From Bryoerythrophyllum caledonicum (lineage: Eukaryota; Streptophyta; Bryopsida; Pottiales; Pottiaceae), in assembly GCA_963971425.1 (NCBI GenBank), contig OZ020515.1, forward strand, positions 38,731,198 to 38,795,197: a DNA stretch of 64,000 nucleotides, read 5' to 3'. Below are positions 8,199 to 63,651 of the stretch, in pieces. The first letter of the stretch is position 1; each line of letters begins with the position of its first letter. The notes under the pieces were generated by a model. The model was not told the origin of the DNA. It saw only the letters and a program-made list of their open reading frames with translations, and made no database searches. The position numbers were made by a program, and so were the translations under genes.

Positions 8199-11100
8199 TC
8201 ATTCGGTTCCTAATTCTGTAAGGGTTCGCATACCAGCTATCTTGATCAACTTGCGATGTTGGTGAGCTGGTAGAGCCTTTGTGAGCATACCAGCGATATT
8301 CTCAGCTGATGCAACCTTCCTTGCTTGAATCTCCTTTGCTTTGATGAGGTCCTGTGTGTAACTGAATAGATGTGGGCTGATGTGCTTTACCCGATCGGCT
8401 TTGATGAAGCCTGAGGATACTTGTTGGATGCATGCCGCATTGTCCTCGAAAATTGTGATGGGCTCCTCCTTGATCGGTATTCTGCTCATCTAAGAGATGG
8501 CATGATGCATTGTTTGTAACCAAACCGCCTCCCGGGACGCCTCGTGAAATGCTAAAAGCTCGGCATGATTTGTTGACGTCGCGGTGATGGTCTGCTTTGT
8601 TGATCTCCAGGAAATGGGTGCTCCATTTTTGGTGAAGATGTAGCCCGTCTGTGACTTCCCGTTTGTTGGGTCAGTCTGGAAACCGGCATCTGCGTAGCCA
8701 GTGATGCTGCTGATAGTGTTCTTGCGGTAGTGAAGTACGAGGTCCTCCGTGCCGCGAAGATAGCGGAGAAAGTGCTTGATGCCGCGCCAATGCCGTTCCG
8801 TTGGTTCTTGGTTGTGGCGAGCTAATACGCTGACCGCAAATGCGATGTCCGGGCGTGTGTGGGTGGCGAGGTATAAAAGTGCTCCCACGGCCGCCAAATA
8901 CTTACTTCTGTCAAGCTCCTCCTTGTCTTCTTCGGCAGGGCGATAAGGGTCATCTTCAGTTTTGCTCTTTCCAATCATCGGAGCGGAGAGTGCGTTTGCA
9001 TCGGCCATGTTGAATATACTCAACAATTTCTTCACATACGTCTGCTGGTGGAGTAACAAACTCCCATCTGTAAAGTGCTTGATTTGGAGACCAAGACAGT
9101 ATGTTGTTCGGCCTAAAACTTTCATCTCAAACTTGTTAGTAAACATCTTTTCTACTTGTTTACTCAATGCTAATGTCCCTATAGAGTTAAGGTCATCAAC
9201 ATAGACCGCTAGAATAACAAATCATGTTGTATCTTTCAGGACAAAGACACATGGTAGTGTCGGGTGATTCGTGAACCCTAGGGATAGGAGAAAAGATTTC
9301 AGGTGATGATACCATGCGCGCCCCGCTTGCTTAAGTCCATATAGGGCTTTTTGGATTTTTAATCCGGAGAATCTCCCATGTACTGGTGGGGTTTGGTTTG
9401 TAATAAAACCAGGGGGCGGCTTAATATGAATATCGGTATCGAGGTCACCGTATAAGTAGGCAGTGACAACGTCTAGGAGTTGAGTCTTGAGTGATAATTG
9501 AACAGCTAGGCTGAGGAGATATTTAAAAGATGTGCTATCCATAACCGGTGAGTAAGTTTGTTCAAAGTCTATCCCTGGTTTCTGTGTGTAACCCTGAGCA
9601 ACTAATCGAACCTTAAATCTGAGTACATTCCCTTGTTTTTCTCTCTTGCGGGTAAAAATCAACTTGTGGCCTATGGGTTTGTCTATTAGGTCATTCACAA
9701 GGGGCCCAAATACACCGCGTTTTCTAAGCGAGTTATACTCTGCATTTATGGCTTTTTCCCAATGGGGCCAGTCAATGCTTTTATGGGCTTGTACTAACGA
9801 GGTTGGATCTGTATCTATGGTTGCTAGGCTGGATAGAAATGTCGCGACATCATCCCATGGTGTGTCGTGAGAGGTAAGACTGGTGTGTAGCACCGTACGT
9901 GCCCTGGGGCGAGGGGTAGGGTTCAGTTTCCTTTTCATAGCGGGCTCGGGAGGGGCAGGATTTCCCGATCCAGGAACTGGACTTCTAATGATACGGGGGC
10001 CGGAATGAAATCCATTTGGGATTTTATCCGCCAGGTTCTGAAGATTGATTAACTTCCTCACCTCGGAATCGGCTAATGCTGTACGCGGATCAGGGTTCAA
10101 GGTAAGCGTCTCTATGGCTTTAAAATTTAATTTTGAGTGATCCGCCTTGGACTGTGAGCTAGGGAATTTGTTTTCTACGAATCTACAATTCTGAAATCCG
10201 GCTTTGTGTATGTCGTCACTATGCGGTAGTTTGTACCTAATGACGCTCGGGGAATCATACCCAAGGTATGTCCCTCGTTGCCGGTGGGGTGTGACTGTTT
10301 TCTGCTTTGGTTCAGGTACCGGGATCCACACCTCACATCCGAATGTCCTGAGGTGTGCTACGTGGGGGGTTCTACCTGAAGCCATCTCTAGAGGTGACTG
10401 GGTCAATAACAGGGTAGGTCTGAGACGTAATAGAACAGTTGCGTGAAGGACAACATGTCCCCAAAAACTGGGTGCTAAGTTTGCGTGTATCAGGAGAGGT
10501 CTAACTATGAGCTGAACTTTCTTGATGTACGCTTCGGCTAATCCATTTTGGGAATGCTCATAAGGAGCCGAATAGGTCAATTCTATGCCTCACGCGACAC
10601 AGAAATCCTCAAAGGCCTGGGATTTGAATTCCATGGCATTATCCATGCGGAGGAAACATACGTGGTTATTGGGAAAGTGGTTTCTAAATCGGATAAGCAT
10701 CGCTAGGGTTTTCGGGAACACCATGTTCCGTGTCGTAAGTAGTGACACCTCAGCATGTCGTCCAAAAGCATCGACAAGAACAAAGAAATACTGAAACTGA
10801 CCTGATTTGGGAGTGATTGGTCTGCATATGTCGCCGTGCAAGCGATGTAGCGGAGCTGGCATCTCGGTCGGGAGTCGCCATCTTGACGGTTGACGTATGA
10901 GTTTGCCTTGTATGCATGCCGCGCACTCCTCGATCCGCTCAACATCACTTGTACATAGGTCGTGACCAATGAGTGTTGGAACCATTTTCCTCATCATGGT
11001 AGTCCCAGGGTGTCCCAGCCGGCGATGCCAGAGATCTGCCTTGGCGCTCGTGGTCATAAATGACATTTGGACACCCTCCAAGGGTAGGCGTGGGGAATCT

Positions 11101-12566
11101 TGTCCGCCACCCTCTTCTTCACCTTTGCAGGCGGGGCTAGGTATAGTTCCCATTAAGGGTAACTCATACAGGCCGTTGTCCTCCGCATGTGCGGTGGCGA
11201 GGAGTCTCTGCCCTCGCCTGAGCTCTAGAACCTCTTCATCATTCTCCACCGCAGTGGAGACGTGGATACGATTGGCCCTAAGGTCTCGGTAGTTGATCAA
11301 GCTCCGAAGGGCATCCGGGGCGTACATCGCCTTTTCATAGGTGTGGGGGGCTCCCCCGGGCAAGACTATGTTTGCCCGGCCCTCGCGAAACTTAAGAGTC
11401 CGCTTGCCTGCTATCGTGACTATGTCACATGTTTGCCACGGCTCATTTCGAGTTCCAAACTCAAAGAATGCCTGGTCTTGGAGTATCGTATGGGTGGACG
11501 CACTATCAAGCAAAGCTATTCTCGTTTTGCTTGCAGGTGACCCATAGTGGACCATATAGTTTTCAGGATCCAACCCATGAAGTGTAAGAGAGGGGGCATC
11601 AAGGGTATGTGTTTCCTTTTTTCCATCTCTTAGTGACTTCAGCTCTCGATACATGTCAACTATGTACTGAGACGCTCAACACTCCTTGACAAAGTGCCCT
11701 TGACGACCACACTTATGACATGATCCCTTCAATACCTTTCCCAATGATTGTGACGAGCTAGACGATTTGTCGGGTCTGGGTCTGTACCTGGAGTTTCGGT
11801 TTGAATGATTCCATTCATGTTTTGGGCGCCAATCTCCCTTGCTCTTCCTCCGTGGTGCCTCCAAAGCGTGAGTTTCCCTGTTGGGATTGCCTGATTTTGG
11901 TGGCGGAGTTGGCGTAGAGTTCGACTGCTTCCCTTCCTTCATCTCGGTCGCGTGTATCTCCTTGGCGGGGCGTGCTTCGGCATTCTTCAACAACATCTGC
12001 TGTTGCTTTTCTGCAAGGAGAAGATAAGACATAAGCTCTGAATGTTGGGTGAACTTCATATTGCGGTACTGCTGCGCTAGAATTGCACAAGCTGGTGGGA
12101 AGGTTGAGAGCGTCTTATCTATCATGTCAATGTCGGTGATGGTGTCGCCGCATAGCCTGAGTTGCGCCACGATCCGATGGAGTTCCGAGTTGAAGGCGAG
12201 AAAGTTCGGGAAATCAAGGACTCTGAGGCTGATCCAATCGTTGCGTGCTTGTGGCAAGAAGATGGTCTCCTCATGTTTGAAGCGCGCCTCTAATGCTGTC
12301 CACAGTTCCGCCAGGTCTTCCACTTGGATGTATTGTTGACGTAAAGATGCATTGAGGTGTCTTCGCAGTATCAGTAAGGTTTGCCACATGTACGGCGCTG
12401 GGATCTCCTTTTCAGGCTCTGTCTCCAACGTCGCGTCCAGTTCTTCCGCGTAGAGGTACGTCCTCATGTCCACGTTCCAGCCGAGGTAGTTCGACCCGTC
12501 CGGTTCAAGAGGATCGAAGAAGAGCGGCTGTATGCGGGTGTCCCGTGTGCGTGCGTGTGTCGCCAT
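8199..12566 (-). pseudogene. Copia gag-pol polyprotein with four in-frame stops
   Basis: One continuous frame of 1,456 codons from an ATG at 12566 to a stop at 8199. GAG lies at residues 1-296 and ends in a CCHC zinc knuckle (CHKCGRQGHFVKEC). The protease has LDSAST (Asp about 354). Integrase has the HHCC region (H514, H519, C548, C551), then D579, D642 and E678, a DD35E spacing. RT has LDVVTAYLYGDL, ALYGLKQAGRAWY and YVDDL. RNaseH has YADAGF, AELLA and EDNAA. Nonsense codons sit at 11676-11678 (TGA), 10590-10592 (TGA), 9222-9224 (TGA) and 8490-8492 (TAG). There is no frameshift. Every stop is one transition from a sense codon (CGA, CAG or TGG). The protein would be made as four fragments, so the copy is probably non-autonomous now. 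Confidence 0.95.
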
Positions 12567-14529: not shown

Positions 14530-14700
14530 GTGGATGTTTAGCGGAGCTTTCTAGACGGTTAGCGGAACTTTCTTGATGTTTAGCGAACTTTTTTAGACGT
14601 TTAGCGGCAATTTCAGAGGCAATTTGAGAGACAGTTTTTAGAGGCCATTTTAGAGGCGGTTTTAGGGCAATTTTAGAGGCAGCTTTTGAGGTAGTTTTGG
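14530..14700. repeat. Short tandem repeats 'gtttagcggaac' and 'ttttagaggcaat'
   Basis: Three or four copies of an approximately 22-bp unit (about 14535-14605) followed by about six copies of an approximately 20-bp unit (14608-14695). They directly precede the 74-bp array. Confidence 0.7.
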
Positions 14701-14704
14701 CTGA

Positions 14705-16045
14705 AATCAACCCGGAGTCCCAACCCGGACATCCGAGCACTTCCGGTGACACAAAGAGACAAGGAGACCTTCCAGCTGACGTCAACCCGGAGTCCCAACC
14801 CGGCCATGAGCTCATTTCCGGTGATACCCGGAGACCAAGAGGCCTTCCAGTTGAAGCCAATCCGGAGTCTCAACCCAGACATCGGGCAACTTCCAGTGAC
14901 ACCCGGAGGCTTCCTGCTGCAGCCAGCCCGGAGTCCCAACCCGACCATCCGATTATTTCTAGTGACACCCAGAGACCCAGGGGCCTTCAAGTTGAAATCA
15001 ACCCGGAGTCACAACCCGGCCATCTGATCACTTCTAGCAACACCCGGGGACCCGGAGGCTTCCAGCTGCAGCCAGCCCGGAGTCCCAATCCGGCCATCCG
15101 ATTATTTCTAGTGACACCCAGAGACTCGGGGGCCTTCAAGCTGAAATCAACCCGGAGTCACAACCCGGCCATCAAATCACTTCTAGCAACACCTGGGGAC
15201 CCGGAGGCTTCCAGCTGCAGCCACCCTGGAGTCCCAACCCGGCCATCAAATCACTTCTAGTGACACTCGGCGACCCGGAGGCTTCTAGCTGCAGCCAGCC
15301 CGGAGTCCCAACCCGGCCATCCGATTATTTCCAGTGACACCCGGCGACGCGGAGGCTTCCAGCTGTAGCCAGCCCGGAGTTCCAACCCGGCCATTTGATC
15401 ACTTCTGGTGACACCCGGCAACCCGGAGACTTCTAGCTGCAGCCAGCCCGGAGTCCCAACCCGGCCATCCGATTATTTCAAGTCACACCCGGCGACCCGG
15501 GGGCTTCCAGCTGCAGCCTGCTCGGAGTTCCAACCCGGCCATGCGATCACTTCTAGTGACACCCGGCGACCCGGCGACCCGGAGGCTTCTAGCTGCAGCC
15601 AGCCCGGAGTTCCAACCCGGCCATCCGATTATTTCCAGTGACACCCGGCGACCCGGAGGCTTCCAACTGCAACCAGCTTGAAGTCCCAACCCGGCCATCC
15701 GATTATTTCCAGTGACACCCGGAGACCATGAGACCTCCCAGTTGAAATCAAACCGGAGTCCCAATCCGGACATCCGAACACTTCCAGTGACACCTGGAGA
15801 CCCGGCGACCTTCCAGCTGCCGCCAACCCAGAGTCCCAACCCGGACATCCGATCATTTCCAGTGACACCCGGAGACCCGGAGGCTTCCAGTTGGAGCCGA
15901 CCCGGAGTTCCAATCCGAACATACGATCATTTCCAATGACACCCGGAGACCTGACGGCCTTTCGGCTGCGGACAACCTGGAGTCCCAACCTGGACTTCCA
16001 ATCAGTTCCGGCGACACCCGGAGGCCGGAGGCCTTCCAGCTTCAA
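14705..16045. repeat. About 18-copy minisatellite, 74-75 bp unit
   Basis: Each unit carries 'cccggagtcccaacccgg', 'catccgatcatttcc', 'agtgacacccgg' and 'aggcttccagctgcagcc' in that order. Successive 'cggagt' words fall at 15301, 15375, 15449 and 15523, giving a 74-bp period in the middle. Earlier copies are 75 bp, so the first five keep one frame (NPESQPGH repeated) and later copies rotate through all three frames. That argues against coding function. The array makes up over 40% of the element interior. Confidence 0.93.
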
Positions 16046-17032
16046 CTCAACCCGAAGGTTTCAGACCGGATACCCGAACACGTTCGATGAAGATTGGAGA
16101 CCCGGCAGTCTTCCAGCTGCAGTCAACACCGGCGTACCACCCGGACCAGGGGACTGTTCCACTCCAGAAGGGGGATGGTGCATCCAGACTAGGTAAGTTT
16201 CCGGAAACACATCTTTCAAGTTAAAAATTAAAAATTAAAAAAGAAATACAAAGGGGAGGGGAATTTTTTTTTTAAATAAAAATAAAAATTAAAAATTAAA
16301 AAAATTAAAAAAGAAGATTAAAAGATGTTATGTCAGGAGGTAATAATTGCAAAGGAAAATTCCAGCTACAATATGCGGACACTACTCACTAGGCAACGCC
16401 TGCACTAGAGGAATGCACTGCTAACCAGAAAGGAGGAAAGACAATGGATGGTTGGCGGGATTGCATGACCAGGGCAGTATATCGGCACCCGGAAAGGGAG
16501 GACCACAAGAGGGACGGAGGATAAAGGAGATCCCCGATCACTACCCGGGCACCCAGGAAAGACCAGATACTGAAGCGCTGGCAAGACAACTCGACTAGGC
16601 CAACACCGGCTGTCAGTCATCGGAAGCAGAAGACAATTCACTCAGCATGGATGGTGACCAGGGACGAGGAGGTCTAGAAGATGTAGGGAGTCAATTCCAG
16701 CAACCGCGTACAACCCGGCTAGTATTGTGGCCGGATAAATTGGAGGTTCACACGGTCATGGGCAGACCACATATTAGCTCCGAGGTGAAGCTTGGAAGTT
16801 GGTGTCAAGGCGGAGATTTTGGGACTTGGACAGGGTATTGGCACCCGGGCGGACTGAGGAGAAACGGAGGACGAGGAGATCCACGATCTTTACCCGGCCA
16901 CGGAGATGGCTTGATAACTGGAGCAGCTGGTGAGAAAACACGTTGGGGGCATACTCAAAGGCAACACCAGAAGGAGTCATCGATGACCTTCAACCAAAAA
17001 AAAAAAAAAAACATTGGAGGACCGATGTAGTT
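16046..17032. other. Unique 3' interior of the LARD-like element
   Basis: About 1 kb with no recognisable protein. It includes an A-rich stretch (16220-16325) and a poly-A run near 16996-17010. Small frames here have no motif. Confidence 0.6.
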
Positions 17033-57194: not shown

Positions 57195-57202
57195 CTATCC
57201 AT

Positions 57203-57241
57203 CTGGGGGGGGGGGCACTTAGTGTATAAATCTAGAACTAG
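57203..57241. repeat. Left TIR and subterminal word
   Basis: CT, eleven G, CACTTAG, then a less conserved stretch and AGAACTAG at 57234-57241. Confidence 0.88.
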
Positions 57242-58063
57242 CTGCAAACACTAGGTATTTTCAGGGGGGGTATTATTTTTGATGGGACGAATATTGTACT
57301 ATGTTCAATTACATAATACCCTTGTTTTGCTCAATTGAATGTACCGTTGTTTTTATTACAATTTTTTTTTTTGGGAATAGATTGCATGCTAAGTTAGTTT
57401 AAAAAATTAGTTTTAGACGGTTTAAGCTCGAAGCTAGTACAAAATCAGAAAAATGACAACGAATATAGAAACTACAACCAATTGCCACTAAAATGCAGAA
57501 CATTCATTAAAACGCATACATTCAAAACTAGACATACAAAAATCGCACCGCAATACAGTATTCCCAATTCGCATGCATTAACATCCAAACTCAAACATGC
57601 TCAGAAACTGGACTCTTTAATAACCTGATTGCAGCTTGACATTCGCTTACAAAGTCGAGAGCATTCAACTGTACACAAGTATCCACAAGTCACAGGTGCA
57701 CAAAATAAGATCAACAACAACCAAAGTCAAAGTCAAAGTACTTTCCTCCGACGAGGTCTTGTGTCTGTCAACACAGCTTGGAGGATGAACACCCTAAAAA
57801 AAGGAAACAAACAGTCCAGCAAGTGGAGTCAGTACGAGGTGAACATCTCCCGGTAGCTACTGTGCATAAGTCCGTTGTGCAACTACGACTAGCCTCTACA
57901 TGTTCCTGTAATCTAATGGTTACAAGCACCATGAAGAAGTAAAAAAACCGAAACAACCAAACTGCCACGGTAACGGAGGAATGTCTGTTGTTACCCTCCG
58001 TGGGCGGTTGCAAAAAAAGCAAAAATCAGCTAATGATTATACCTCCCGCTCATCACGATCCTT
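57242..58063. other. 3' flank of the transposase-like gene inside the element
   Basis: Non-coding. It contains a second G-run (about 57264-57271). No accessory gene is recognised. Confidence 0.55.
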
Positions 58064-61000
58064 CTACGACTTCGAGTTGCCGCTTTGTTTCTGCTCATCT
58101 AGCGCGTCCCGTACAGCCGCCAAATCCTCCACGAGCAGTGTGCCGAGCTCCTCAGCATTCACCGCAGTCGACGCGAAAGCCTCGAAGTTGCGCTGCCAAC
58201 GCCCTCTGATGAAGGCGACCTTGTCCACCCACCCCACATCCGCAACCAACTGGTACTCCCACACTGCAAGACGAATTCATCGCAGCTGCGGCGTATTAGG
58301 AAATGCCTCCAGCACCCGACACAGCAGCGACGCACAAAGCAAATGTGGAAACGAAAGACGAGTACATCGTGAGGACAGACGCAAAGTATGATTGACATGC
58401 AAATCAAGGTCTTACCTTGTTCGATTTTGGGAAGGGCAGTCGTCATGACATTGGAGCTCAATGCTTCGAAACGAAGTCATCCAACACCTGTCTGTCAGAA
58501 TCCGCAAGACAATACAAGTTTTGCCTACTGTTAAAGGTAAGAGCAACGCTGGAGATAATGCAGTCAACATCGATCCATTGGGTATCTGTAACATCGTACT
58601 TGAATTTGTTCCGGCCTGGTCCCTTCGAGAACCAGTTAAACATAACCTGCACCGTCGGTGCTGCACTTACCTTCGTACCGTTAACAGTTGATCTGTTCAT
58701 TAAATCGATGGGGTTCCGTGAAGGGCCCCATTTTGTACCATATGACCGCCTGATTTTTTATACCCTCCCTATCCACCACGAACTAGAGTCTGCGCCGGCT
58801 GATACAACAACCGGAGTCCCTCTTCTTTGCATCGATTGCCTACTACGTTTTTGAGCTGCACGACATGTAGAAGGGGTAGCAGTTGTCTCATCCTGCTCAA
58901 AATACACCCCACAGTCCGTCCCTAATCCAACAAGGCAAGTGCTATTTGAACTAGAAGTAGACAGATAGTCTTCAGCGTTATTGAAATAAACCGAATTCCT
59001 TATTCTCGTAAGACGATCCTTAGATAGGAAGGGATTACCGTTTAATTCAGAAACCAACGTTGATTTATATATGTGCTTACCAGAATACTCGACCAGTGGC
59101 GAAATCCTTACAGTCCCTTCTTGCGATGTGGTTTCACTACTTGGTGTTATATCAGACGTACTCAGCAGGTCCCGAATTGCATGTCTGCACTCGTCTTCGG
59201 CAACGACAAGGGGATCCAGACCATCCTCAGTGAATGCAATGTCTTCTTCTGCACAATCTCGCGTGTTTTCTTCATGCTCCCCGAAAGTGACATCCGCAGC
59301 AAGACTCTCCCTCATCACCTCGCCGTCACCGTCTTCTCCTGGAACCGGTTGAGATGGCGGGCTGTAAGTCCAATGTTTCGTATCGGCTGCCTCGAGCGTC
59401 CACGGCTGTAGAAACCATTTCTTCTCCCTTGCTACCGTTGACGGAGCCATATTCAGTCCTCGCAGCATACTCTGTGCTGATTTAAAGCCCTCCTGCAGAC
59501 AAGAAATCAGAGCTGCATCTGTTTCAAGTCCACCGTAGTCACCTAAATTTGCCGCACTCTCGTTCTCTCCGAACGGGTGAAGCTTGGCCCAGATGTTAGC
59601 TTGTTTGTTGTGGGCCCTATTGAACTTCAAGCCATTCTCGCCATATTCGATGTCTGCAAGGTGGTTGACAGTGTTTGCACAACCCAGTAGCTCGTGAAAA
59701 TCATATGACCTCTCCATTCCCTGCATACCACCTACTTTGCTAAAGAAAATCTCACATGAGTCTGAGCCAGTTAAATGCAACGGAACTGGTAAGTCGCTAT
59801 GAAAGTCCCGGAAATATTTAACTAAAAGAACCACAAAGTGACACGACAGCTGAATGTCAATGAAGCATTGGTTACTCACAAAACACTCTTGAACAGAAAG
59901 GGTTTTAGTATTACCGCCAACGCTGTGATCACCAAATTTGAACCAGAGTTTCCAAAGTCGGAAGAAAAACGAAACCTTGGCTGCGAGAACAACTCTATCT
60001 CAAAGACTCAAAGACACCGACAAGAACACATCTACGTAATCTGATACAATCTGTAGGTACATTTCGGTACCAAGAGTCCTCTCCTGATGTGCGTCACGTT
60101 CTACCTGCAATTTCCGAAGACTATCTCTTACCTTCTTCGAGCATAGTCGTTGCGCACTCGCCCAATTTTGCCTGTCAGTTCGTTGGACGTCCTCGAGTCT
60201 AAGGCCGTGATCATCATATGAAAACTTATTGTACACCTGTCCTATGTGCTCAAGCAAGCAAACATCAGCCCCTAATTGGAGACTCCTCACGGCACTATCC
60301 AACGGATTTATCAATTTCTTACCATTGTGCACATAATCTTGATCATGCAACCCTACAACCCGAACAGAGTTTAGAAGCAAACCTGAGAGAGTCCACCCCG
60401 CCCAATCTATACTGTACCTTACCCCATCTTTCCCGGTCAAATCCTGGATCATCAGCTGACGCCGTCGTGAATCTCCATCCGACGCATGTCCGATTATCGG
60501 ACCTACTGCCTCCTCACACTCAACCTGCCAGAGCACGTCAATGGCGTCCCATTGTTCCCGTACCCATGCAGAATTGAAACAATTGCAAGTAACGTTGACC
60601 ACGAGCACAAGTCTAGGCAATTTATCATGCAATGGATTGACCACTATAACCCTGGCGAAGCTCCCAATGCGGTTAGTCCTAAACGCATCTACAATGTTAG
60701 TATATCCTGTATCTCCAGAGCCAACCACAGGCTTGAAATGTGAGTCACAGCAATGATTCTCTTTGGAACCACAGAAACCGACGAGAACATCAGTACGTGA
60801 CTCCCACGAAATTTGACTTTTAACCTTGGTCTCATCTTCGGCAAGTATCACCGGCACTTGCCCTCTGATCCCGTGGGCAGCCTTTACTTCTCGGTAAATC
60901 CCTGCAACACAGGTGAAAATCTGCACATGTTCTCCCGCAACAAACTGCATCCCTTTCTTATGCTCCCCTTTAGTTTTGGAATAAGAAGGTGCAGCATAAT

Positions 61001-62948
61001 TCAGAGCAAACAAGTCACACATGCGGCGCCCACCGTATATCTTCATAGCCTGAGAAAACGACTTGGTATTCTTAGAGTACCTAAATCCTTCTTTCTGACG
61101 GTTCAAATTAGTGGCGACATCCCTGAGGAAGTCCCACAGTGCTGGCTTTCCCCCGAACGCATTGGTTCTGTGAGCAGCGAGTATATTGTTACAAAATGCT
61201 AACACATCTTTCCTATTAAAATTCTCTACCGCACACAATTTCAAACCCTTCGTCGTCAGTTTCATTTGGGCCATTTTAGCCTTCAGCAGCCAGTGAGACG
61301 TTTTTTCATCTTTGAATTTCCTAGCGAGGACTCTACTACGACCAGCCAATTCTCTAAGTGACAGATAATCAACCCTACGTCCTGGACAGTTATCAAGGAA
61401 ACCTCTCTTCACTACAACGTGATTCTCTCGCAAAACCCGAAGGCGAAAATCATTTTCTTTAGGGATTTTGGTACATTCAGAGCATGTGAAATTAAAGAAC
61501 GGTTCTCCTGTCAAGCTCAGACGTTTACACCTAACATGTCGAAAACATCCGTCCACTGTACTAACAACTCCCCGATACAGGAACTCTGCCGAGGTTGCCG
61601 GCTCTGGAACCCACTCTTTCCCTAGCTTCGGGTCGTATAAGAGTCCCAAGAACTCATACTCCAAATCCCCATACGTAGTAGACGGACCCCTTAATCTCCA
61701 GCAAAGCAAACTAAGGGGGCAGAAGCATTCACCAGAATCAGTCGATGTTGAAGTTCTCTCGGAAAGCCTGAACCAACTGTGCAGATCCTACTGGTTTCCG
61801 ATTGTACGCGTGGAGGACGACGGCCTGCCCTTGCGACCATTGTAAATCGCATTGGAGGAAGACCTCTCCCCCGGAGCTAAGTCCTGTAGCGCTTTGGTGT
61901 GCTTTAATCCGTGTACATGATTCTCGAGGTTCGCCTTCAAGTTCTTCCTCACTGGACAGAGGTGGAAAATCTCCCCGTCCACCTTGCACCGAACTTTGTA
62001 CCAGAATGACTTCAATTTAGTCGCCTCTTCATCACCAATGACTACAAACGGACCCTGCCCACCATCGACAGCCATGTTCACCTCTTCCAGAATCGTGAGA
62101 CCTTCTTCGACCAGCCGCTTATGGTCAGCGGCAGTGAGGATTATCGATTTGCCTTTCGAAGCTTGAGATTGCGGATGATTGGAATAATCCACGCCTTTCC
62201 TTTGACACCAAGACCTTATGTGCAACGACGACTGAAGGTGGGACTTCTTGAAATTCGCAAACAAATTGTGAATGGCAGATTTAGAGTGATCTCCAGTCGT
62301 CCCTCCGAAATCTTTACCGCATTCACCACAGTGCAACTTGACGACACCAACATCGTTTAGGTCACAAGATTTCAGGTGCCAGAGATGGTCGTCAAAGTCC
62401 ATCTGTTGTAGTTCCTTCTGTAATTTTAGTACTTGAGCCTTAAACTTCTCCATTACGTCTTCTGAAACTAGGATTGACAACAGATTAGCTGCGGAGTAAG
62501 GGTCACTGACTTCCGGCAACGCCACAGATGGGGTGGTAGGAGAAGGGGTTGCAGGATCCGTAGCGAAATCGTCGTCAACTGGGAATTGTGCCTGCTCGAA
62601 GGGGGGGCTAAATCCGAATACTTCCTCACCATCTCTGATTCCTTGGTCATCCCTCGACGATCCAGCGTTTAATCTTCTCCGCTTTGCTGGTCCTTCGTCG
62701 ATGACTTCACACGTTGGAATAACGTACACACGTAAATCAACTGTGTTCATACCCTCGAATGTTCTCTTTATCCTGCATTTCTCCTCGACGTCCTAAAACT
62801 CAAACGGCCATCCCACGCAACCCGCGGACTCAAGCTTTGCCCTCAAATCCCTGTAGGAGTCGTTCTCACGGCAAACAAGAGGACTGATTAGTACCGGGTT
62901 TGAATCTTCATCAGCCAGACCATACAATTTCACCTTGCACGACGACAT
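58064..62948 (-). pseudogene. Giant transposase-like ORF (about 1,500 codons) with four in-frame stops
   Basis: From the ATG at 62948 one frame runs to 58458 (1,497 codons). Nonsense codons lie at 62793-62795 (TAG), 61788-61790 (TAG), 60000-60002 (TGA) and 58758-60 (TAA). There is no frameshift until the end. Features: basic KRRR (about 89-92), zinc-finger-like CGEC...H...H (207-243), a second Cys/His cluster (HLCPVRKN to HGLKH, about 329-350), and a third (CFRHVRC...FTCSECTKIP, about 468-496). The catalytic-like core has LAEDETKVK (D705), ASDGDSRRR (D824), GLHDQDYVH (868) and SDSCEIFFS (E1066). The C-terminal part holds NGNPFLSKDRLTRIRNS, WWIGRV and DTQWIDVDCI. A last exon (58263-58064, after donor CAAG|GTAAGA at 58415) adds VWEYQLVADVGWVDK and continues to NSKS. 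Joining to it needs a 1-bp shift near 58470. Confidence 0.85.
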
Positions 62949-63605
62949 CTTCCCTCGAACATAGAAGATATAGAATCAGACGCACTAAACCTCCAAACCC
63001 TAACCCAGTTCACAATAGGAAACCAGAAAACACAACCATACACCCATAAACAGTAACCCTAGCAGGAGAGAGGTTAAGAAATCAATTGAATCTCAAGGCT
63101 TGCAGAAGTTCTGTTGCGGTGATGCAAATCTCCATGAAAACAACGCGAAATCAGAACCCTCCCGCATCGACACCATTGCCCGACGATTGCATCTGGAGCG
63201 GAAACAGAATTGGAAGCGGGAAAACCTAGGCCGCCACCCTAAACCGCTGGCAGTGGAAGTGAATCATTACTGATTCAAAAACCGTGGTATTTTCTTACAA
63301 GATCTCCCCCGTTCAGACTTGAATCTCATCCAACGGTGAAAATAAACCCTAAACCCTAACCCTGTACCCTAGACCCTGATTAAAAACCCTAAACCCTATC
63401 ACATTGTAGTAATTTAGATTCTAGTCACAGCTAATTAATATATGGCACACTACCTTAATATTAATAAAAATCTAACATGGTCTATATATTTGCACCCTAT
63501 ATTACTTATAATTTATCTCCACTATTTCCTTGACGCCTATAATAAATCAAATATTCTTATAATTTTTTGGCCAATGTAATAAAATACACCGTATATTTGT
63601 TCTCT
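62949..63605 (-). promoter_or_regulatory. 5' region of the transposase-like gene with telo-box motifs
   Basis: Contains several AAACCCTA/AACCCTAA words (about 62990-63002 and 63053-63062, and a cluster at 63344-63400), degenerate copies of the plant telomere unit. Such 'telo boxes' occur in plant promoters. The cluster lies about 400-450 bp upstream of the ATG. No clear TATA box was picked. Confidence 0.5.
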
Positions 63606-63643
63606 CCTAGTTTCTAACTCAACCGCTTAGTGCCCCCCCCGAG
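63606..63643. repeat. Right TIR and subterminal word
   Basis: Reverse complement reads CTC, eight G, CACTAAGCGG, then AGAAACTAG (forward 63607-63615), mirroring the left end. Confidence 0.88.
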
Positions 63644-63651
63644 CTATCCAT

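Follow-up and report, generated by a model that had tools for sequence, protein, structure and literature searches.

Among the best studied transposases is that of the P element, whose catalytic signature (D230, D303, [C/D](2)H at D339, and E531) and insertion domain (residues 339-528) are set out in PMC8230255. PMC7776569 describes subterminal repeats in P and a 17-nt stagger in the cut that P makes, and presents P as the sole user of guanosine triphosphate (GTP) as a cofactor in its superfamily. For land plants, the list in a 2022 review gives six terminal inverted repeat (TIR) superfamilies, with P absent from that list (PMC9033089), and a 2015 survey counts P-element among the superfamilies that occur in every taxonomic group it covers, land plants being one of them (PMC4438587), so that P-like annotation in plants has some precedent. 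Here we describe a transposable element in a 64,000-nucleotide stretch (hereafter the window) of the 437-Mb genome of the moss Bryoerythrophyllum caledonicum (contig OZ020515.1, C2, positions 38731198-38795197). With a probability of roughly 0.87, we read this element as an inactive copy of a cut-and-paste transposon whose transposase would act by a P-like mechanism and whose family would branch deeply as sister to the P superfamily. The family very likely uses a P-type mechanism. Its reading as a transposon is based on its ends, target-site duplications, long gene, many copies, an intact-looking relative, and purifying selection.

The window element belongs to subfamily A, together with siblings L009-L012 (6420-6441 bp, ~97% identical). 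Both of its termini are immediately flanked by CTATCCAT, a pair that was re-found by script, and GGGGGGCACTNAG with at most one mismatch occurs twice in the 64 kb, both times at the element ends, against 0.15 expected occurrences. An earlier note on this DNA had described this perfect 8-bp duplication and the matching G-run inverted ends, and both are present (Table 1). It had also described a second conserved word about 30 bp inside each end, which is weak in the window copy (10/14 bases at positions ~32-47, equalled by 56/500 shuffles) and clearer in other subfamilies. The word recurs near position 32-48 at both ends of copies, as GTGCGAACA in subfamily B (11/14; 6/500 shuffles as good), TATGAGCGA in C (11/14; 11/500), and GTGAGAACAA/GTGAGACCAA in D (12/14; 6/500), with one copy used for each; in subfamily A, where three copies were tried, it reaches 10/14, and 44 to 59 of 500 shuffles did equally well. 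Further features lie inside the termini. About 60 bp inward from the left end (57264-57280) is a second G-run followed by TATTATTTTT, and subfamilies B, C, and D have a similar word (AGGGGG..TATTA.TTTTT) inward of their 3′ ends. At 63337-63405, ~240-310 bp inward from the element's 5′ end, are AAACCCT-type repeats resembling plant telomere units.

A search of the host genome with a 569-aa core of the protein (164 first-look candidates, 77 scored) returned at least 77 matches, and the matched core is free of stops in 26 of the 77 rows as counted from the table, the window's own included in both figures. Twenty other copies, three more, and the window were examined with their flanks, and both ends and a duplication are present at 15 of these 24 loci (12 at 8/8 and three at 7/8), in agreement with the 8-bp duplication of P and with the expectation that other copies would carry G-run-type ends. 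In subfamily A, the window, L009, L011, and L012 match at 8/8, and L010 and the 74%-identical L013 at 7/8. Subfamily B has L014, L015, and L017 at 8/8 and L018 at 7/8, and 8/8 is also seen for L019, L026, and L028 in subfamily C and for L020 and L027 in subfamily D. The common terminus is CTCGGG, with CTG, CTTGG, or CT[CT]AGGG at some 3′ ends. CTCGGG-type termini make the 3′-terminal base of each end a G, which we read as the same 3′-terminal G as the 3′ terminal guanosine given for P in PMC7776569. At its 3′ end, L012 lacks ~20 bp that L009-L011 carry between a pair of TAG words immediately internal to the terminal repeat; since its terminus and 8-bp duplication are intact, this loss looks like a short-repeat deletion.

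Ends and duplication could in principle have arisen by chance around a host gene, a reading with which the broken window copy would agree. It is refuted by same-type ends with different 8-bp duplications at 15 loci. In a control on 14 loci, the true offset gave 8/8 at 11 and 7/8 at three, against 8 (8/8) and 57 (7/8) among 52,080 shifted pairs, and we regard the host-gene explanation as practically negligible. Each locus offered 1 to 6 candidate end pairs, from which the one used was picked by its flank match, so a slight selection is built into the duplication count. The control is without the window, whose ends were missed by the script pattern and found by a second script.

The transposase is encoded by one minus-strand frame, as had been proposed; that frame is not open, being interrupted by premature stops at 62795-62793 (TAG), 61790-61788 (TAG), 60002-60000 (TGA), and 58760-58758 (TAA) before its natural TGA at 58460-58458. 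The window copy therefore cannot make the whole protein and is inactive. From its Met, the frame matches full-homolog length, and, judged by eye, the relatives P0003 and P0016 stop near the same point. The motifs LAEDETKVK, ASDGDSRRR, HDQD, and SDSCEIFFS are all in the frame, and the three Cys/His clusters are conserved in the family alignment, where 11 to 18 of 26 rows have letters at these positions. The core as modelled with AlphaFold (761 aa, 84 rows; mean predicted local distance difference test score [pLDDT] 87.9, predicted template modelling score [pTM] 0.79) has D705 in the first strand, D824 just past the strand at model residues 380-385, and E1066 in the helix after an insertion that is almost wholly helical. 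Together with the alignments, this model supports a transposase of the DDE/RNase H type that contains an insertion domain and has the catalytic residues as previously named, whose numbering is correct when counted from Met. The C-terminal domain was modelled as beta-rich (pLDDT 76.6, pTM 0.63). Its VIA neighbours appear to be BAH and chromo-barrel proteins (DIM2 7.7, ZMET2 7.6, EBS 7.4), a likeness that found no support from Foldseek.

The label "autonomous" may hold for the family and does not hold for the window copy with its four stops. L014 (C12, 6280 bp) has both ends, the duplication TTCTTCCC, and an unbroken 1557-codon frame that carries all four motifs looked for. Identity within subfamilies is ~94-99%, L013 excepted. 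Among eight copies compared, the ratio of nonsynonymous to synonymous substitution rates (dN/dS) was 0.12-0.19 across six B-C pairs and 0.35-0.97 across five within-subfamily pairs; all pairings of A or D with a different subfamily are saturated at silent sites. The lower B-C values fit selection on the moving lineage with drift in the copies, and purifying selection has acted between the two lineages. The transposon family is real and probably recently active.

What ties the family to P is mainly structure and alignment. P transposase was by far the best match in the fold search, and the predicted structure has an RNase H fold into which a helical domain is inserted, as in P. Profile-profile comparison by hhalign and plain MAFFT gave the same residue pairing and matched the whole P signature string; D871xxH874xxK877 aligns on D339xxH342xxK345, the motif with which the insertion domain of P opens, and hhalign also pairs N881 with N349. 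Pfam P models match single distant members at the right places and the window protein not at all. In Pfam scans of 39 proteins in all, some without the N-terminus, the P-type helix-turn-helix (PF12017) is above cut-off in P0129 and P0131 only, and not in the window protein. The "undescribed superfamily" of the earlier note, if taken to mean one without kin, is not supported. A hAT or KDZ transposon would also account for an 8-bp duplication, and SDSCEIFFS resembles the hAT dimerisation end. The hAT transposase Hermes scored far lower than P, no hAT Pfam match was seen in the scans made, and no KDZ match was seen in the Pfam scans, made without a check of which KDZ model the library holds; we consider this assignment very improbable.

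Several observations weigh against the proposed placement. Identity to P is only ~13%, sequence comparison of the family profile with the PDB gave no match to a P chain, the family consensus matched no P model in Pfam, and most of the 39 scanned members were without a P match there. The THAP domain (PF05485) was not matched in these 39 proteins, some of which lack the N-terminus. Of the eight residues that PMC7776569 gives as GTP contacts in P, only D528, S409, and D444 are identical in the window protein by the hhalign alignment, and K385, K400, V401, F443, and N447 differ. Both ends were not found at nine of the 24 loci (L016, L021-L025, L029-L031), where an end lies outside the fetched stretch, is lost, or is unrecognised.

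The remaining question is one of rank. The element may simply be a divergent P element inside the superfamily as now defined, which the shared catalytic signature, insertion, duplication length, and fold match make a serious possibility, short of even odds. A quick tree built from 70 family cores and 51 P cores, however, puts the two in separate clades (support 100) joined by a branch of ~2.8+2.8 changes per column, ~5.6 in all, although the program warned of long branches meeting. The P catalytic models PF21787, PF21788, and PF21789 are below cut-off in all 39 scanned members, with best scores of 21.7 bits against 24.6 (P0031) and 13.1 against 24.8 (P0016), and none matched the window protein; the THAP domain was not found, and the termini and C-terminus differ. 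The family profile thus points to P without falling cleanly inside it. A separate superfamily of equal rank within one P clan, to which we give close to an even chance, agrees with the reciprocal clades, with the family's own ends and domain make-up, and with disjoint hit lists, in which the 134 family identifiers include none of the 120 proteins listed for a Drosophila P query, each search having scored the 7999 candidates sharing most words. Rank is nevertheless a convention, and intermediate P lineages may bridge the gap, because a single query, Drosophila P, supplied the P sample, in which most named members come from arthropods.

Relatives carrying SSDGDSRRRKLM do exist in other eukaryotes, as the earlier note had suggested. 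The window protein found 35 proteins at E<=1e-3 and a ten-row profile found 140, giving at least 134 identifiers from both searches (the 35 plus 120 listed of the 140), with 7999 candidates scored in each. Named relatives come from Calypogeia fissa, Riccia sorocarpa, Adiantum nelumboides, Desmophyllum pertusum, Amphiura filiformis, and Mytilus edulis, so the family spans liverworts, a fern, a coral, a brittle star, and a mussel. No relative was confirmed among the viral contigs or bacterial and archaeal genomes searched. A precomputed Pfam domain is present on one of the 134 relatives, a retroelement domain on the fern protein P0034. This annotated A. nelumboides protein joins a transposase piece to a Pol_BBD retroelement domain and may represent two mobile elements fused in the gene model. 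The Novosib superfamily, of green-algal origin and with an 8-bp duplication, could instead have been found in a land plant. Nothing seen links the family to Novosib, which is known here by description alone and is catalogued under protists only in Table 3 of PMC4438587, and this we judge improbable.

Table 1. Coordinates of the element and its features in the window (position 1 is the first base of the window)
Feature	Position	Strand	Basis or remark
Target-site duplication, left copy (CTATCCAT)	57195..57202	.	sequence
Target-site duplication, right copy (CTATCCAT)	63644..63651	.	sequence
Whole element, 6441 bp, subfamily A	57203..63643	-	ends and siblings L009-L012
TIR, 3′ end of gene, CTG11CACTTAG	57203..57222	+	sequence
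TIR, 5′ end of gene, CTCG8CACTAAG	63626..63643	-	sequence
Subterminal word AACTAGCTGCAAAC	57236..57249	+	weak in window copy, clearer in subfamilies B-D
Subterminal word AACTAGGAGAGAAC	63599..63612	-	weak in window copy
Transposase coding frame, Met (62948) to natural TGA	58458..62948	-	1496 codons before stop, 4 premature stops among them
Zinc cluster 1 (C207, C210, H237, H243)	62205..62387	-	conserved in alignment
Zinc cluster 2 (C321, C331, H344, H350)	61899..61988	-	conserved in alignment
Zinc cluster 3 (H471, C474, C489, C492)	61473..61538	-	conserved in alignment
RNase H fold, first part	60435..60857	-	predicted; D705 (codon 60836-60834), D824 (codon 60479-60477)
Insertion domain, almost all-helical, counterpart of P GTP-binding insertion	59760..60338	-	starts at D871xxH874xxK877xxxN881
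RNase H fold, last helix	59643..59759	-	predicted; E1066 (codon 59753-59751)
C-terminal beta-rich domain, tentatively BAH/chromo-barrel-like	58461..58943	-	model and structural neighbours; not significant in Foldseek

Elsewhere in the window, the body of a Copia-type long terminal repeat retrotransposon lies in several frames on the minus strand (8490-12566), with gag, gag-pre-integrase, integrase, and RVT_2 domains, some matched below cut-off. A tandem array of ~18 copies of 74-bp (149-bp) units at 14700-16054 overlaps a 187-codon open frame.

As predicted from the fold and the alignments, the zinc clusters and helix-turn-helix would bind the ends and subterminal words, and the RNase H domain, with D705, D824, and E1066, would cut and join DNA. 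The insertion, predicted to be homologous to the GTP-binding domain of P, would hold the ends, and joints made 8 bp apart in the target would give the duplication. A nucleotide cofactor, GTP or otherwise, the geometry of the cut in donor DNA, and the reading of chromatin by the C-terminal domain may be conjectured. A broader scenario, tentative and on balance doubtful, would have a superfamily-rank sister of P in land plants, animals, and other eukaryotes, with CTCGGGG termini, without THAP (lost or never had), with its own zinc-cluster DNA binding and a BAH-like C-terminus steering insertion, and possibly still moving in this moss.

The family is a very distant P relative missed by standard family models, with exact ends defined from 15 copies. 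These ends and an intact-looking copy make it directly testable and annotatable. Far from P, with the core kept and mostly unrecognised by Pfam, it can serve as an outgroup when the basic parts of the P mechanism are sought.

Among known systems, Transib and RAG1 scored far lower than P in the fold comparison, and the Transib duplication is 5 bp. With P (Drosophila 6p5a and 6pe2; THAP9), the family shares an RNase H fold divided by a helical insertion, the D-D-D(2)H-E signature, the 8-bp duplication, and TIRs with subterminal words. It differs from P in having three zinc clusters, with no THAP domain found, a protein of ~1500 aa against 751 aa, a beta-rich C-terminus, CTCGGGG ends, and a GTP pocket kept at three of the eight listed residues.
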